Source of the DNA: Flavobacteriales bacterium
Lineage (GTDB): Bacteria; Bacteroidota; Bacteroidia; CAIKAF01
Direction of reading: 5' to 3'
Assembly: GCA_025451295.1 (NCBI GenBank)
Contig: JANWKQ010000159.1
Location: forward strand, 1 to 33,839
DNA length: 33,839 nt
The notes beneath the pieces are model-generated. The model had not been told where the DNA came from, did no database searches, and worked only from the letters and a program-made list of their open reading frames with translations. The translations under genes and the position numbers were made by a program. Shown in pieces: positions 1,274 through 33,839 of the stretch. Positions within the stretch are counted from its first letter, which is position 1. Each line of letters begins with the position of its first letter.

Positions 1274-1302
1274 TTGCAGATTAAGAAGTACAGCTATATT
1301 TG
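1274..1302 (+). promoter_or_regulatory. Promoter of the HU gene (TTG / TATATTTG)
   Basis: TTG at 1274-1276 and TATATTTG at 1295-1302 are 18 bases apart and fit the Bacteroidota -33/-7 consensus (TTG - about 19 - TAnnTTTG). The predicted start site near 1308 gives a leader of about 28 bases before the ATG at 1336. Confidence 0.7.
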
Positions 1303-1335
1303 TTTCACGTTTAACCCATTTATAAATAAACACAA

Positions 1336-1608
1336 ATGAACAAAGCAGAATTAATCGAAGCAATCGCATCTGATGCGGGTCTTTCTAAAGCAGATTCTAA
1401 AAAAGCTCTAGATGCATTTATTACAGCAACTACAAAATCTTTGAAAAAAGGTGACAGAGTAGCTTTAGTAGGTTTTGGTTCTTGGAGCGTATCTAAAAGA
1501 TCTGCTCGTACTGGCCGTAACCCACAAACTGGAAAAGAAATTAAAATTCCAGCAAAAAAAGTGGTTAAATTTAAAGCTGGTGCTGAACTTGCTGGTGTTA
1601 TTAAATAA
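1336..1608 (+). CDS. HU family DNA-binding protein
   Basis: A 90-aa nucleoid protein of the HU/IHF family that bends DNA as a dimer. The length is that of canonical HU. The signature arm sequence [14 protein letters not shown] (60-73) is present and places the DNA-intercalating proline exactly at the canonical position 63. The hydrophobic turn GFGSW (46-50) and Lys/Arg-rich arms are also typical. Codon use differs from neighbouring genes (many GCT, TCT, GTA and AAA codons and few rare ones), as expected for a highly expressed gene. It has its own promoter and a strong intrinsic terminator, so it is a monocistronic unit. I cannot distinguish a housekeeping HU from one of several paralogues and therefore give no symbol. 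Confidence 0.97.
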
Positions 1609-1630
1609 TACATCTTCAAGCAAAAAATTA

Positions 1631-1661
1631 AAAACCTCGACAATAGTCGAGGTTTTTTTTT
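1631..1661 (+). terminator. Intrinsic terminator after the HU gene
   Basis: A 7-bp perfect stem (CCTCGAC 1635-1641 with GTCGAGG 1646-1652, AATA loop) is preceded by AAAA and followed by an unbroken T-run to 1661. It is a textbook Rho-independent terminator 22 bases after the HU stop codon. Confidence 0.95.
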
Positions 1662-1748
1662 GCCGATTCTTCTTGAAACACATAGCTATGTCAACTATAT
1701 GCCTATGTATTTCAATATATTTATCTTTACTCCTAAATCAACAAATCA

Positions 1749-2396
1749 ATGAGAAAAATATTCATTCCTCTTTTGCTTCTGCTCACCATTTCCTGTGGAG
1801 GCAAAATGATCGTTGCCGAAAAATGGGAAAACGGGAAAGATAAAATTGTATTGCGGATCGATAAAGGCACCAAAGAGAAACCAGAAGTATATTATATGAA
1901 ATCCTATTATCCAAATGGAAATCTCTATAAAGAAGGCTTGGTAAAAGACACTCTGGAAGATGGACTTTGGAAAACCTACTATGCATCCGGCGAAATTAAA
2001 TCAAAGGGGTCTTATAGCCTGGGGAAAAAAGTAGGTGATTATGCCATTTATTACCGGGATGGAAAAACTGAACAAAGCGGAATCTATGAAGGTGATAGTT
2101 TAGTAGAGGCATATCTCTATGACAATCATGGAAAAATGATGGAGGTAGATTCCACTACCTTATGGTTAAGCTCCGGAAAACCAAAATGGAGTGATATTCA
2201 ATATGCCCTTATGCATATGGAATGCAACATGATCTTTTTCGATAATTATGAAAGAGGAACCAAAGTATGTACATGTTTCCTGGATGTGATCCAGCAAAAG
2301 CTTACCTATGAAAAATATGAATTGATGACCGATCGCCAGATCAGTCAGCTCATGCTTTTTGTAGGTCCCGAATATCAGGCTTGTATCGGTAAATAA
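1749..2396 (+). CDS. Putative lipoprotein with YwqK/MORN-like repeats
   Basis: A 215-aa exported protein. It has a hydrophobic signal (about 3-15) followed by Cys16 in an ISC context, so lipidation is likely although the lipobox lacks the usual Leu at -3. Residues about 45-130 contain three MORN-like strands of the type YYPNGNLYKEG...GLWKTYYASGEIKSKG, as in proteins annotated 'toxin-antitoxin system YwqK family antitoxin'. No toxin gene lies nearby, so the antitoxin label should not be taken as function. The C-terminal 75 residues form a different domain with four cysteines (159, 174, 176, 212) and a CTCFLDVIQQK stretch. Its spacing resembles small secreted Bacteroidota proteins that carry a CxC and a late Cys. 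A near-match -7 element, TATCTTTA (1722-1729), lies 19 bases before the ATG. Confidence 0.75.
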   Translation: MRKIFIPLLLLLTISCGGKMIVAEKWENGKDKIVLRIDKGTKEKPEVYYMKSYYPNGNLYKEGLVKDTLEDGLWKTYYASGEIKSKGSYSLGKKVGDYAIYYRDGKTEQSGIYEGDSLVEAYLYDNHGKMMEVDSTTLWLSSGKPKWSDIQYALMHMECNMIFFDNYERGTKVCTCFLDVIQQKLTYEKYELMTDRQISQLMLFVGPEYQACIGK

Positions 2397-2479: not shown

Positions 2480-3817
2480 ATGAAAACAAATTTAAGGAAC
2501 CGCATCATTCTTTTTACGCTGTTATTACTCACCAGTATGTTTTCTGTGCATGCTCAATCTTCCATTATCACTGTGTGGAAGGACAGTGTGATCGGAGCCA
2601 TCTGGAATGATTCAACCAATACTGTTGCCTATGGACGCAAAGATGTCAATGGATATTATAAAATATTTCTTTCGGATTCCTTAGGTAATAATGAACAACC
2701 GCTTACCTATCCGGGTTGGGATCCCAATAGGCATCAATGGGCTGAAGAATGGCATCCCTCCGGGAATTATTTGTTTTGTTATGTAGAAAAAACGGCTTAT
2801 GCATCAGAAGCAGGACATACGCGAATACCGGATGATGCAATGCCGGGATATGGCGGGTATACCGATATCTGGCTCATCAAACGGGATGGTTCACAGGCCT
2901 GGCAGCTCACCAATTATCCAAATAATTACGACAACGGAGTCATTCATGGTGCTATGTCGCAGGATGGTTCTTTGTTTGCCTGGTCTCAACGGATCCAGGC
3001 ACCCGTTCCTTTCGATTTCAACCTGGCCGCGGGGGCTTATGTAATGAATGTCGCCCAGTTTATTGATGGACCAACACCAACCATCAATATTATCCACACG
3101 TTTCAACCCGGAGCATTGCTGGCAGCGAATGAGCTGGAAAGTATTTCACCAGATAACAATACCCTTTCTTTTTACAGTACATATGAAACCCAAAATATTT
3201 TCAATACACCGATCTATACGATCGACATGAATACCGAAGTGATCACACAACTTACAACCGAGAGTTTTGCGCAGGCACCCACTTATACACCCGACGGCAG
3301 CAAATTTGTTTATATGACCGGAAAGGATTGTGATATTTTTCCATTCGAGATCCAGGGAGCGGATTGGTGGCTGATGAACAATGATGGAAGCAATAAACTT
3401 CGCATTTCAAGAATGAATATCACAAATGATCCGCAATCCGTGAATCATTATCGCCTCGCAGGAAGTATTTCATTCATGTCGAACACAAGTTTTTTAGGAG
3501 GCGTGATGACTCAGCCTTTGGGCCTCACCGGTTATACCGCCAAAGTCCAAATACTTCCTACCATAGGTATTGGTCCTGAAGAAATACTAACGGAATTTTC
3601 AATGTATCCGAATCCTACGTATGAAAAACTCACCATTCAGTTGCAAAATAATTCACAGGAGGAACTTCTGCAGATTTATAATTCTACCGGCACACTCATG
3701 AAAGAGGTAATGGTTGATGAAATTTCTGAAATCGACATTAGTTATTTACCCAGAGGAATTTACTTCCTGAATCTAAAAACAAATCCTGAGCATTCCAGGA
3801 AATTTATTAAGCAATAA
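2480..3817 (+). CDS. T9SS-exported TolB-like beta-propeller protein
   Basis: A 445-aa secreted protein. The signal peptide (about 1-25, ending VHAQ) sends it across the inner membrane. Residues about 30-340 carry repeated PDGSxFVYMT- and DGSxxWQLTN-type strands typical of WD40-like (PD40/TolB) propellers. Residues 375-445 are a type-A sorting domain (MYPNPTYE..., PRGIYFLNLK, terminal RKFIKQ), recognised by the T9SS for export and surface attachment. The substrate is unknown, and no catalytic motif is visible. A -7-like element TAACTTAG (2466-2473, one mismatch) ends six bases before the ATG, so it has its own promoter and a very short leader. It is convergent with the next gene (19-base gap). 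Confidence 0.85.
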   Translation: MKTNLRNRIILFTLLLLTSMFSVHAQSSIITVWKDSVIGAIWNDSTNTVAYGRKDVNGYYKIFLSDSLGNNEQPLTYPGWDPNRHQWAEEWHPSGNYLFCYVEKTAYASEAGHTRIPDDAMPGYGGYTDIWLIKRDGSQAWQLTNYPNNYDNGVIHGAMSQDGSLFAWSQRIQAPVPFDFNLAAGAYVMNVAQFIDGPTPTINIIHTFQPGALLAANELESISPDNNTLSFYSTYETQNIFNTPIYTIDMNTEVITQLTTESFAQAPTYTPDGSKFVYMTGKDCDIFPFEIQGADWWLMNNDGSNKLRISRMNITNDPQSVNHYRLAGSISFMSNTSFLGGVMTQPLGLTGYTAKVQILPTIGIGPEEILTEFSMYPNPTYEKLTIQLQNNSQEELLQIYNSTGTLMKEVMVDEISEIDISYLPRGIYFLNLKTNPEHSRKFIKQ

Positions 3818-29467: not shown

Positions 29468-29662
29468 ATGAAATCAGATTACTGGAACGTAGAAGACAAG
29501 CAAGTGATCGAAAAGACCGGCAAGAAAATCTCCGAATGGATCAAGATCATGGATAAATTTTGGACCGCCGATAAAAACCCAAATGATACTGTAGCACATT
29601 TGCAAAATGAATACAATCTTCCCAGATATTGGGCAGGAACATTGACAACACTGTGTACCTAA
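29468..29662 (+). CDS. DUF4287-like small protein, possibly frameshifted at the 3' end
   Basis: A 64-aa cytoplasmic protein that fits the DUF4287 layout: EKTGKKISEWIKIMDKF (15-31), then TVAHLQNEYNLPRYWAGTLT (41-60). It ends abruptly as TLCT. Family members normally continue W-A-x-x-x-T-x-x-Y-E. Removing one TG from CTGTGT at 29651-29656 would give LYLKSKE and a stop at 29674-29676, restoring the aligned Tyr. A small insertion, or a sequencing error, at this dinucleotide is therefore plausible. It lies five bases after the YD-repeat-like gene and 17 bases (three after restoration) from the convergent CDF gene. The function of the family is unknown. Confidence 0.72.
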   Translation: MKSDYWNVEDKQVIEKTGKKISEWIKIMDKFWTADKNPNDTVAHLQNEYNLPRYWAGTLTTLCT

Positions 29663-29679: not shown

Positions 29680-30288
29680 TCAGGGGGCAGACAAAACTAC
29701 CGGTTTACTTAAAACCTTTATTGAATGACGAATAAGTCCTAAACTCCATTTGGCTATTACCACTGCCACAACAATACTTAACAAAGCATCAATAATGAAA
29801 AAGTTGGTGTAGTATATAATAATTGACCCTCCAATAACGGCCACTGATGAAAATGTATCAGCCAACAAATGTAAAAAGGTACTTTTCGTATTCAGGTCCT
29901 CCAGTCCGGATTTGAACAGGATCAGAGCGGTCAATAAATTTACAGCCAGACCAACCAAAGCAACCATCATTGTTTCCATCGCCAGTATTGACGAAGGATC
30001 AATGAGATGTTTGATACCATCTATCAAGATATAGGCCACAAAGAACAGCAAACTGAGTCCGTTCACCAGGGCGGCAACATATTCCACTTTATGATTTCCT
30101 CTTTTTTCGGCAATAAGGATGGCAATAAAAGAAATAACCAAAGCAAAATTATGTCCAAGCATATGCAATGCATCACTGTATAACATTAGGCTATTCGCAA
30201 TAGCACTTACTATAAATTCAAGCACCATTACGAGAGATGTGATTACAATGCAAGCAATTAATGCCCATTTCTTGGAAATTCTTTTCAT
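29680..30288 (-). CDS. Short cation diffusion facilitator (CDF) transporter
   Basis: A 202-aa membrane protein with six TM helices of the CDF metal/H+ antiporter family, which exports Zn2+, Co2+ or similar ions from the cytoplasm. Typical CDF proteins are about 300 aa; the cytoplasmic C-terminal metal-sensing domain is missing here, as the protein ends just after TM6 (KVLSKPVVLSAP). In TM2 the metal site reads D39-A-L-H42-M-L-G-H46: the second ligand, normally Asp, is His. The TM5 site H140-L-L-A-D144 is normal. A change in metal selectivity is likely. The gene follows the LRR gene by nine bases on the same strand, probably in one operon, which is an unusual pairing. Confidence 0.88.
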   Translation of the reverse strand: MKRISKKWALIACIVITSLVMVLEFIVSAIANSLMLYSDALHMLGHNFALVISFIAILIAEKRGNHKVEYVAALVNGLSLLFFVAYILIDGIKHLIDPSSILAMETMMVALVGLAVNLLTALILFKSGLEDLNTKSTFLHLLADTFSSVAVIGGSIIIYYTNFFIIDALLSIVVAVVIAKWSLGLIRHSIKVLSKPVVLSAP

Positions 30289-30297
30289 ACTGCTTAT

Positions 30298-31230
30298 CTA
30301 ATTGCTATTGTCAAAAATGATCGTTGTATTAGGCAGAGCTATTTTTATCCGGTCCTGTTCGATAATGTCAATAGAATTACCTACCAGAAGCAGCGTTTTT
30401 AGATTGGTTAATTGCCCGATATTATCAGGTAATGTTTTGATCTGATTGAAGCTCAAAACCAATAATTCAAGTTTTTTTAGCTTGCAAATGGAAGAAGGAA
30501 GTTCTTTTAATTGGTTATTGCTGATAATGAGTTCGGACAAGTTTGATAGCTGACCAATCTTTTCATCCAATTTACCTAATTGGTTGGATTCAAGATTCAG
30601 GCTTTGAAGCTTTCTTAGGTGGTAAATAAAGGTCGGGAATTCCTCAATTTGATTGTAACCCAGATCAAGTCTTTTTAAAGAGTTCAACCTACAGGCAGAT
30701 TTCGGAAATAAGGATAGCTGGTTGAAGGTGAAAATAAGTGTAGTTAAATTTTTTAAAGAAAATACAGCCGATGGAAAGGCTGTGAACTCATTGTTTGTTA
30801 AATTCAAATAGGTTAACTGTTGTAATTTCTTCAACTCTTCGGGAAGAGCCGTCAGTTTATTTTTGCCTAATTCGATCGCCTCCAACGATCTCAGACTTTT
30901 TATTTCAGCTGGCAATACAGTGATTTGGTTTTGCTGACAGTTTATTTCCCGAAGTTCCTTTAATTCCCCAATCTCCTTCGGAAGGGTGGTCAACTTATTT
31001 TTCATCAGGTTGATATAAGTAAGTTCGCCGAACTCTGCTATTTCAGGAGATAGCTGTTCAAGACCTTGTTGCCGAAGGTTAATAGATACTACCTCTTTTT
31101 TCGCATTTCTTGCATCGGCAAAAGAGTAATAAACCTCCGAAGTATTTAAAATATCAGCCTGCTGAGAATAAGTGGAAGTAAATAGACCAAAACTCAACAA
31201 AATCAGTAAAAACTCTCGATTCGTTCTCAT
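30298..31230 (-). CDS. Secreted leucine-rich-repeat protein
   Basis: A 310-aa protein with a signal peptide (about 1-22, ending STYSQ). From about residue 45 to 275 it has ten regular 23-residue LRRs of the form LxxLxLxxNxLxxLPxxIxxLxx (for example LTYLNLTNNEFTAFPSAV and LELLVLSFNQIKTLPDNI) and a degenerate eleventh repeat as a cap. They form a curved solenoid for protein binding. It has no catalytic domain, sorting domain or lipobox, so it is presumably periplasmic or released. It is upstream of the CDF gene (nine-base gap) and downstream of the Ig-like T9SS gene, separated from it by the hairpin at 31252-31287. Confidence 0.92.
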   Translation of the reverse strand: MRTNREFLLILLSFGLFTSTYSQQADILNTSEVYYSFADARNAKKEVVSINLRQQGLEQLSPEIAEFGELTYINLMKNKLTTLPKEIGELKELREINCQQNQITVLPAEIKSLRSLEAIELGKNKLTALPEELKKLQQLTYLNLTNNEFTAFPSAVFSLKNLTTLIFTFNQLSLFPKSACRLNSLKRLDLGYNQIEEFPTFIYHLRKLQSLNLESNQLGKLDEKIGQLSNLSELIISNNQLKELPSSICKLKKLELLVLSFNQIKTLPDNIGQLTNLKTLLLVGNSIDIIEQDRIKIALPNTTIIFDNSN

Positions 31231-31301: not shown

Positions 31302-33839
31302 CTACTTTATGAATACAATTTTTAGGCTTGAATTAAGTTCACCCAGATTGATCTGTAAATAATAGTTTCCCTCCGCCAGTTGAAGTTCGGTTTTGTTGAT
31401 GATAAATTCATACTTTCCGATTTCCAAATAAGAAGGAACATCCATACGGATAACTTTACCTAGCGCATCCAAAAGATCCATTTTCAAACTAGCAGCTTGA
31501 ATAGCAGTAATGGTTATTGTTACCTGATCTGAAGAGGGATTAGGATAAATATTAACAGAGGATCCGTTATCAAATGTAACCATACCTGTATTTGGAACAA
31601 TGGAAACAAAAACAGTATCCGCATTGTCACAACCTGTAATAGGATCGGTATACTGATAAATGATCGCATAAGGTCCACCTACGCCGGCAGAAGAAGGATC
31701 GAAAACATTTCCTGAAACTCCAGGACCTGAGAAAACACCTCCGGATGGTGTACCTACCATATTAGCCGCAGCTGATGTTACCACATAGTTTGTATTAAGT
31801 CCCAACAAACTTACATTAGGCAAAGGATGAATGTTAACCTGAACAACGCTGGATGGTCCTTCACAACCATTTTGGATATCGGTAATATAAAAGGTTGTGG
31901 TAGAAGTAACAGCGGGTGTAAATGTATTTCCGGTATTCACAACGGTAGTAAGCGCAATATCACTATACCATGTTACATTCGTTCCTGAGGCATTTAATCC
32001 GGTAATACTTTCGTCAATACAATAATCGAGATCACCTGTAATTATTGGCGAAGGAGGCAATGCATAAATAGTCAGTGTGGCATCATCTGCCGGACCGGTA
32101 CATCCATTTGCATCCGTTTGAGTTAAGAAATATTGATAAATACCAACAGCAGTATTGCCTGTATTGAAGTTATTTCCACTTCCGGCAAGAATCGTAAGTC
32201 CGGCATCGCTAAACCATTCAATTCCAACACCCAAAGAAGTTAGATCCGGAATTGCTCCATTAAAACATGCCACCTCATCATTCGATATAGGTGCCAAAGG
32301 AAGGGAATTGATCGTTACTATCACCATGGTCTCATCACTTATACAACCATTGATACTGGTTGCAGAAACATAAAATGTATCGGTGGCAGTAATTGAAGGT
32401 GTATAACTATTTCCGGAGGCAATATTACCCGTATAATTCGGCAATGAATACCAATCAATACCGGTTCCCGAAGCAGTTAATGCGGTAATGGTTTCGTTGG
32501 CACAATAAACATTTTGTCCGGTAATGAAAGGTGCAGCTGGTTCTGCATAAATGGTGAGATCAGATTGGCTCGCTGTACCACTTGTGCAACCATTTGCATC
32601 CGTTTGTGTAGCGTAATAAGTATAAATTCCAGGAGCAGTATTTCCCGTATTAAAATTATTTCCTGTTGCCACTAAAATAGTAAGACCAGCGTCACTGAAC
32701 CATTCTATATTTGTCCCTGTTGCAGACAAATCCGGAATAGTCAACCCTTCGCAGATACTTTCGTTTGCAGAAACGGGAGCTGCCGGTAACGAATAAATAG
32801 TAAGGGTTGCATCATCCGATGGACCAGTACAACCATTGACATCTGTTTGAGTTAAATAATATTGATAAATGCCAACAACGGTATTACCTGTGTTGAGGTT
32901 ATTTCCTGTGCCAGCAAGCATCGTAAGTCCAGCATCGCTAAACCATTCAATCCCTATACCCGTAGAAGTGAGATCCGGAATTGTTCCATTAAAACAAGCT
33001 ACTTCATTATTTGAAACGGGAGCAGATGGAAGTGAATTGATCGTTACGATCACCATTGTTTCATTACTGATACAACCATCGGTACTGGTTGCAGAAACAT
33101 AAAATGTATCTGTAGCTGTAATTGAAGGTGTATAAGTATTTCCGGAAGCAAGGATGCCTGTATAGTTCGGCATTGAATACCAATCAATACCTGTTCCTGA
33201 CGCAGTTAATCCTGTGATCGTTTCATTGGCACAGTAAATATTCTGGCCGGTGATCAAAGGAGAAGCTGGCTCCGCATAAATAGTGAGATCAGATTGAGTC
33301 GCTGAACCACTCGTGCAACCATTCGCATCCGTTTGAGTTGCATAATAGGTATAAATGCCTGGTGCGGTATTTCCTGTATTAAAACTATTTCCGGTACCAA
33401 CCAGAATAGTAAGCGATACATCACTGTACCATTCTATGTTCGTTCCGGAAGCAGACAGCACCGGAATGGTCAATCCTTCGCATACACTTTCATTGCTGGA
33501 AACAGGAACCGCTGGTAAAGCATTAATGATAAGATCTACCTGCATAGCAGAGCTGGTACAACCATTCGCATCAGTTTGAGTTACAAAAAAATCGTTTGTT
33601 CCAATCGAGGTGATGCCAGTATTATAAGAATTCCCGCTGTACAATAGATTTGTTAGCATGGCATCATCATACCATTGTACACTTGTTCCAGATGCTGTGA
33701 GTGGAGAAACCGCATCATTAAAACAATAGGTTGCAGAAGAAGCGACCGGAGAAGATGGAAGTGAATTTACTGTAACATTGATTAAATCCGTATTCGTTCT
33801 TCCGTTTGATCCGGTTACAACAACTGAATATGTTCCCGA
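31302..33839 (-). CDS. Giant Ig-like repeat protein with T9SS sorting domain (5' end outside window)
   Basis: The reading frame has no stop up to the right edge, so these 845 codons are only the C-terminal part. They hold eight Ig-like domains of about 81 residues of the Ig_7 (CHU_C-associated) type: C(E/A/F)..(T)IP.L.A.G....WYSD...L..TGN.F..G......YY.TQTDANGCTS. The two cysteines per domain probably form a disulfide. Then follows a domain with PSGGVFSGPGVSGNVFDP and YTDPITGC. The last 82 residues are a type-A sorting domain (IYPNPSSDQ...). Internal Met codons (such as that at 33659) are not starts. Within the repeats a 243-residue, three-domain block is duplicated in tandem. Such proteins are typically cell-surface adhesins or gliding-associated; the role here is unknown. 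Confidence 0.93.
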   Translation of the reverse strand, partial: SGTYSVVVTGSNGRTNTDLINVTVNSLPSSPVASSATYCFNDAVSPLTASGTSVQWYDDAMLTNLLYSGNSYNTGITSIGTNDFFVTQTDANGCTSSAMQVDLIINALPAVPVSSNESVCEGLTIPVLSASGTNIEWYSDVSLTILVGTGNSFNTGNTAPGIYTYYATQTDANGCTSGSATQSDLTIYAEPASPLITGQNIYCANETITGLTASGTGIDWYSMPNYTGILASGNTYTPSITATDTFYVSATSTDGCISNETMVIVTINSLPSAPVSNNEVACFNGTIPDLTSTGIGIEWFSDAGLTMLAGTGNNLNTGNTVVGIYQYYLTQTDVNGCTGPSDDATLTIYSLPAAPVSANESICEGLTIPDLSATGTNIEWFSDAGLTILVATGNNFNTGNTAPGIYTYYATQTDANGCTSGTASQSDLTIYAEPAAPFITGQNVYCANETITALTASGTGIDWYSLPNYTGNIASGNSYTPSITATDTFYVSATSINGCISDETMVIVTINSLPLAPISNDEVACFNGAIPDLTSLGVGIEWFSDAGLTILAGSGNNFNTGNTAVGIYQYFLTQTDANGCTGPADDATLTIYALPPSPIITGDLDYCIDESITGLNASGTNVTWYSDIALTTVVNTGNTFTPAVTSTTTFYITDIQNGCEGPSSVVQVNIHPLPNVSLLGLNTNYVVTSAAANMVGTPSGGVFSGPGVSGNVFDPSSAGVGGPYAIIYQYTDPITGCDNADTVFVSIVPNTGMVTFDNGSSVNIYPNPSSDQVTITITAIQAASLKMDLLDALGKVIRMDVPSYLEIGKYEFIINKTELQLAEGNYYLQINLGELNSSLKIVFIK
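32061..32789 (-). repeat. 729-bp tandem repeat, second copy
   Basis: This is the C-terminal-side copy of a three-Ig-domain block (243 codons). Corresponding codons in the two copies are displaced by exactly 729 bases at every point checked (four separate landmarks). By eye about 85% of residues agree. Confidence 0.9.
32790..33518 (-). repeat. 729-bp tandem repeat, first copy
   Basis: This is the N-terminal-side copy of the three-domain block. The domain order (CEGLTIP, CANETIT, CFNGTIP types) is the same as in the other copy, showing that the block duplicated as a unit after its three domains had diverged. Confidence 0.9.

Follow-up and report, generated by a model that had tools for sequence, protein, structure and literature searches.

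Does a CDF transporter that has two histidines as its TM2 metal-binding pair and no cytoplasmic domain differ from its relatives in selectivity or coupling, as a sequence-only reading of the locus held? The question is raised by a short gene in the window, the stretch of 33,839 nucleotides of Flavobacteriales DNA analysed here (contig JANWKQ010000159.1, assembly GCA_025451295.1).

Gene, predicted fold and missing parts

ORF reading placed the CDF-transporter gene at positions 29680 to 30288 of the minus strand, with an ATG at 30288, a stop at 29680 and a product of 202 amino acids; the plus strand of the same interval is interrupted by stops. A short CDF gene had been claimed here with no strand stated, and this claim was borne out. 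Pfam Cation_efflux (PF01545) matched residues 10–193 (profile positions 1–197 of 198; 98.9 bits, with a cut-off of 26.6), and the protein reached 134.4 bits with the NCBIfam model of the CDF superfamily (TIGR01297), for which the cut-off is 82.35. An AlphaFold2 model built from a 42-row alignment had a mean pLDDT of 90.3 and six helices (residues 6–31, 34–63, 67–96, 103–127, 132–161 and 165–194). The first 41 rows of a Foldseek search and the first 37 rows of a VIA-align search with this model were CDF structures, the matches covering YiiP, ZnT1, 3, 4, 7 and 8, and SLC30A10, and the best VIA row was YiiP (8f6k_B; Z 24.8, rmsd 2.7 over 199 residues). Judged by Pfam and the predicted fold, the protein is a CDF transporter, and the model shows the six-helix fold with metal site A on TM2 and TM5. 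The two motifs of this site, H42-M-L-G-H46 in TM2 (30151–30165, minus strand) and H140-L-L-A-D144 in TM5 (29857–29871, minus strand), have exactly the residues and positions first claimed for them, the former in a column alignment with 88 other CDFs and the latter in the 42-row alignment, in which D39, H42, H140 and D144 are invariant.

The wider alignment drew on 106 loci, of which 100 yielded 89 distinct CDF proteins and six (L052, L060, L072, L077, L078 and L079) had no match at 1e-4; loci entered the sample through resemblance to the window protein or through an HxxxH match. Of the 89, the window protein and its ortholog, described below, are the shortest. The cytoplasmic C-terminal domain (CTD), which is present in most but not all CDFs, is absent from the window protein, in agreement with the sequence-only reading: ZT_dimer had no match in the 202-residue protein at E values up to 10, and 7 residues follow position 195 in the window protein and in L004 (hereafter the window pair), compared with 4 in L048 and L075 and at least 74 in the rest except L067. 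The 228-aa frame of L067 runs to a contig end, and this protein was therefore not counted as lacking the CTD, although it stays among the 27 HH-HD proteins described below. In the alignment, full-length relatives run on into the CTD where residues 195–202 (29683–29706, minus strand) form the end of the window protein, and one of them, L016, retains ZT_dimer (42.1 bits). The His-rich N-terminal tail of L016, L080, L086 and L087 is also absent from the window pair. The stretch between positions 46 and 69 counts 22 residues in the window pair, whereas each of the other 87 proteins has 29 or 30 there, and in the model the link from TM2 to TM3 consists of residues 64–66 only (30091–30099, minus strand), a three-residue remnant of the cytoplasmic TM2–TM3 loop. 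From the FGYxRxE motif of this loop, G64, K67 (R to K) and E69 remain in the window protein.

CDFs lacking the CTD are numerous according to PMC6465983. Among the matches listed for the window's phylum, 2 of 85 stop-to-stop frames were shorter than 250 aa (the window protein, 205, and one in genome G384, 233), both of them HH-HD, and none of 27 was so in the search of the Sulfurimonas phylum; a CDF match was found in 142 of 148 genomes, with 283 aa as the shortest frame among the best-scoring places listed. A second CTD-less HxxxH lineage was observed within the DmeF clade, consisting of L048 (positions 2935–3636, plus strand; 233 aa) and L075 (positions 1297–2010, plus strand; 238 aa). These two proteins, 60% identical to each other, each come from a different family in the window's phylum and have a degenerate TM2–TM3 loop motif, the loop length being kept and the FG and E of FGxxKxE lost. 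CTD-less CDFs and HxxxH are each known, and the less usual combination is the joint lack of the CTD, the His-rich tail and most of the TM2–TM3 loop. No publication on CDFs having HxxxH and no CTD, or the shortened loop in addition, was recognised among the papers that searches of an open-licence library listed.

Conservation, neighbours and possible partners

A genome of the same genus (G013) encodes an ortholog of the same length, with 146 of 202 aligned residues identical (72%), the same HMLGH and HLLAD motifs and the same end. No CTD coding was seen by eye in the three frames of the 300 bases downstream of the CDF gene. A sequencing error or frameshift behind the short protein, a possibility that the sequence-only reading had itself raised, is excluded by the same-length ortholog and the lack of downstream CTD coding. 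Between the window protein and the ortholog, ps was 0.851 (synonymous, saturated) and pn was 0.171; no ratio was calculated because dS is saturated, and purifying selection fits a pn below the saturated ps.

A gene for an exported-looking LRR protein of 310 aa (30298–31230, minus strand; Pfam LRR_8, 114.4 bits; N-terminus signal-like by eye) lies 9 bp upstream of the CDF gene, a gap that is the same in both species of the genus, and the two genes likely share an operon. In a search at E 1e-40, two of the 16 genomes of the family had the LRR protein, and these two belong to the window's genus. The LRR protein as a substitute for the CTD was dropped because it looks exported. Upstream of the LRR gene (31302–33659, minus strand), seven Ig_7 (CHU_C-associated) stretches and a T9SS sorting tail were observed, and G013 has a long minus-strand frame where the window has this T9SS/Ig-like gene. 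The T9SS sorting domains suggest a host in the Bacteroidota. Beyond the other side of the CDF gene, both genomes carry a gene that we take to be dnaE-like, separated from the CDF gene in the window by two small genes. Convergent with the CDF gene, and separated from the CDF stop by 17 bp, is the gene for a 64-aa DUF4287 protein (29468–29662, plus strand; 28.5 bits against a cut-off of 27). Profile scans and reading of the neighbours revealed neither a metal-related gene nor a regulator.

The lost CTD, tail and loop, together with the long branch of the window pair on the tree, might suggest a decaying gene, with a decay that began at the CTD and has already abolished transport. However, the frame is open in two species despite saturated synonymous change, with pn at 0.171, the four ligands are kept, and so is the 9-bp spacing to the LRR gene; decay is accordingly regarded as quite unlikely.

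A genome-wide ZT_dimer search of the window genome (G000) gave one domain above the cut-off, which belongs to the genome's second CDF (C205, 309 aa), and one further weak match of 12.2 bits, below the cut-off; in G013, one domain above the cut-off was found, inside a full-length CDF elsewhere (frame of 295 aa). No free-standing ZT_dimer above the cut-off was thus found in G013 (98% complete) or in G000, which is 77.86% complete, so that absent partners could fall in its missing part, and a CTD encoded by a separate gene was rejected on this basis. The short protein could also form a heterodimer with C205, which would then supply the CTD. One further CDF, complete with a CTD, was seen in the window genome and one in its sister, and the dependence of MamB on MamM provides a precedent for the reliance of one CDF on another (PMC4994047). 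C205 is, however, at a different locus and only 29–30% identical to the short CDF, and no evidence for pairing was found, leaving such a heterodimer with very little probability in our judgement.

The HxxxH pair and the relatives that carry it

The site A quartets of the 89 proteins, written as the TM2 pair followed by the TM5 pair, were HD-HD in 52, HH-HD in 27, EN-HD in 8 and DD-HD in 2. The HxxxH pair had been read correctly, but it is not unique: 27 of the 89 collected CDFs carry HxxxH, including the DmeF-named protein L050 and full-length Campylobacterota CDFs, and HxxxH as a unique substitution was rejected. The window protein departs from the 1997 CDF TM2 signature, [HDN]-X3-D as quoted in PMC1868760, in having H at position 46; 26 other collected CDFs do likewise, indicating that this signature is narrower than the family. 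L050, with HxxxH in TM2 and HxxxD in TM5, is named DmeF by NCBI and scored 352.6 bits with the DmeF model, whose cut-off is 250. In the alignment, the HxxxH substitution is thus recurrent and includes a named family, and because HxxxH/HxxxD is also the site of a DmeF-named protein, HxxxH alone marks no new selectivity class. The sequence-only reading had allowed for a known clade combining HxxxH with a characterised selectivity, and such a clade was found in part, in that L050 shares the site. Site A composition alone is described as correlating poorly with selectivity, and HH in TM2 is already in print, as the HH-DH quartet of clade 12 (PMC5703985); the DmeF-clade rows here are HH-HD, in contrast to that published quartet, and the two are not equated. 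The EN-HD quartet, which is the one given for clade 6 (PMC5703985), was observed in eight CDFs from the window's own family (L007, L008, L009, L010, L011, L012, L014 and L015).

The survey with the HxxxH pattern found 19 places in 19 of 395 genomes, of which 15 were CDFs and 4 were not (L072, L077, L078 and L079), and its reversed-pattern control matched in 2 genomes. A pattern scan of genome contigs matched 70 stretches, two of which encode a relative. When the Sulfurimonas phylum was searched with the window protein, 27 places were found in 27 of 200 genomes, 9 of them HH-HD and 18 HD-HD, with two of the 18 identical.

On the tree, the 27 HH-HD rows are split three ways. Seven Campylobacterota rows join the window pair, at a support of 91/80, which is below the starred level; three more Campylobacterota rows group together (99/92) next to 17 HD-HD rows; and the remaining 15 form a clade that includes DmeF (100/100). 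The branch of the window pair is long (1.06). One clade of all 27, and with it a single origin of all HH-HD CDFs, was disfavoured (p-AU 0.015, for groups defined after the sequences and tree had been seen), and one clade of all four CTD-less proteins had a p-AU of 0.0005, these groups also being named after the tree had been seen. As these four proteins do not form a single clade, at least two losses of the CTD occurred among the collected rows. HH-HD CDFs, which have a single carboxylate, might be prone to shed cytoplasmic control, two separate lineages having lost the CTD and altered the loop, by a shortening of seven residues in the case of the window pair. This idea is put forward as a doubtful one, and because the proteins compared had been selected for resemblance to the window protein or for the HxxxH pattern, the apparent link between CTD loss and HH-HD is open to ascertainment bias. 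If the idea is true, CTD-less HH-HD CDFs would be natural exporters made of the membrane domain only, with gating independent of sites B and C.

The nearest relatives found beyond the genus are the full-length HH-HD Campylobacterota CDFs L016 and L080 (154–158 bits); the best other match in the 395 genomes of the window's phylum scored 105.4 bits. The Campylobacterota HH-HD CDFs (L016, L017, L080 and L082–L085) are 37–45% identical to the window protein, with the same quartet and with HMFTH near its HMLGH, but differ in their frames of 317–341 aa, their CTD and their FGYxRxE loop, L016 and L080 having the His-rich tail as well. We know of no characterised member of this group. That L016 and the other nearest HH-HD relatives are full length supports a secondary reduction of the window protein.

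The DmeF family has characterised members with Co/Ni or broad Zn/Co export, including that of C. metallidurans AE104 (PMC11340326), and certain Rhizobiaceae are reported to require DmeF for resistance to Co and Ni (PMC9820535). The window protein could be a DmeF without its CTD, exporting Co2+/Ni2+ and owing HxxxH to common descent with DmeF. It has the HH-HD quartet found in L050 and 14 other rows of the DmeF clade (H/H in TM2, H/D in TM5); this clade, with a CTD in 12 of 15 rows and L067 cut by a contig end, already holds the CTD-less L048 and L075; and the window pair as sister to the clade was not rejected (p-AU 0.415). In the best tree, however, the window pair lies outside the clade, and the DmeF model (NF033827) gave the window protein 82.8 bits against a cut-off of 250, slightly below the 86.4 bits of the ZitB model, a score that also falls far short of the ZitB cut-off of 408. 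L048, DmeF-like and CTD-less, still scored 227.2 bits, so the low score of the window protein is not due to CTD loss alone. With the single clades of all 27 HH-HD and of all four CTD-less proteins also disfavoured, a CTD-less DmeF is considered improbable.

Proposed function and reference systems

We consider it probable that the protein is a secondarily reduced CDF exporter, consisting of the membrane domain only and free of cytosolic control, with Zn2+ and/or Co2+ as its likeliest cargo. This proposal draws on the observed residues, the missing parts, the conservation in two species and the relatives, along with the predicted fold. The protein may descend from a full-length CDF with the HxxxH/HxxxD site, of the kind most closely matched in Sulfurimonas and other Campylobacterota; the CTD, the N-terminal His-rich tail and the greater part of the TM2–TM3 loop would then have been lost within the genus. 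The six-helix domain may still bind one divalent ion at H42/H46/H140/D144 and export it from the cytoplasm in exchange for protons through an alternating-access mechanism, probably in the form of a dimer that only the membrane helices hold together. The histidine H46 could still take a proton, in which case D144 would be the sole carboxylate of the quartet. Having no loop or CTD sites, the protein would neither sense nor recruit metal, would not be gated by metal at such sites and may work constitutively, at a level set by expression and metal. The choice of zinc and/or cobalt as cargo is guesswork based on the relatedness of the protein to ZitB-like and DmeF-like CDFs. From the loss of the CTD and the shortened loop, we can fairly infer altered coupling or regulation; to this extent the sequence-only reading stands, whereas HxxxH as a marker of selectivity does not. 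The gene is real, and its product would be a fairly ordinary metal exporter reduced to its membrane part, the intracellular parts having been lost. Points against the proposal are that no metal gene or regulator was recognised nearby, the long branch, the modest group support and the p-AU for sisterhood with DmeF.

CdfX (Rmet_2299) of Cupriavidus metallidurans is described as a six-helix CDF with neither a cytoplasmic domain nor metal-binding disordered stretches, active in zinc efflux (PMC11580412), indicating that a CTD-less CDF can export zinc. The window protein likewise has no cytoplasmic domain and is likened to CdfX by this description, but CdfX adjoins cadR/cadA, whereas the window CDF sits behind an LRR gene. 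No CdfX label occurred among the plasmid CDF queries and six annotated regions, in which annotated CDFs are about 300 aa or more.

YiiP (FieF) shares the predicted fold and the position of site A with the window protein, but has a DD-HD site together with sites B and C (PMC4995437, PMC10617992). Site B is in the TM2–TM3 loop (PMC4995437) and controls the inward-to-occluded change, and site C holds the dimer (PMC10617992); with site C gone, the activity of the window protein may possibly be reduced or lost. At site A of YiiP, one Zn is exchanged for 2–3 H+, the site binding the ion when deprotonated (PMC10617992), and H46 corresponds by motif position to the YiiP Asp taking the third proton (Asp51 in S. 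oneidensis, with an inferred pKa of 6.5). Being the shortest among the 89 CDFs, the window protein and its ortholog could be convenient for structural or reconstitution studies. In the YiiP model, gating and dimer stability are under the control of sites in the loop and the CTD (PMC10617992), and natural proteins with neither, which have full-length relatives at 45% identity, offer a ready test of how much of this machinery transport requires.
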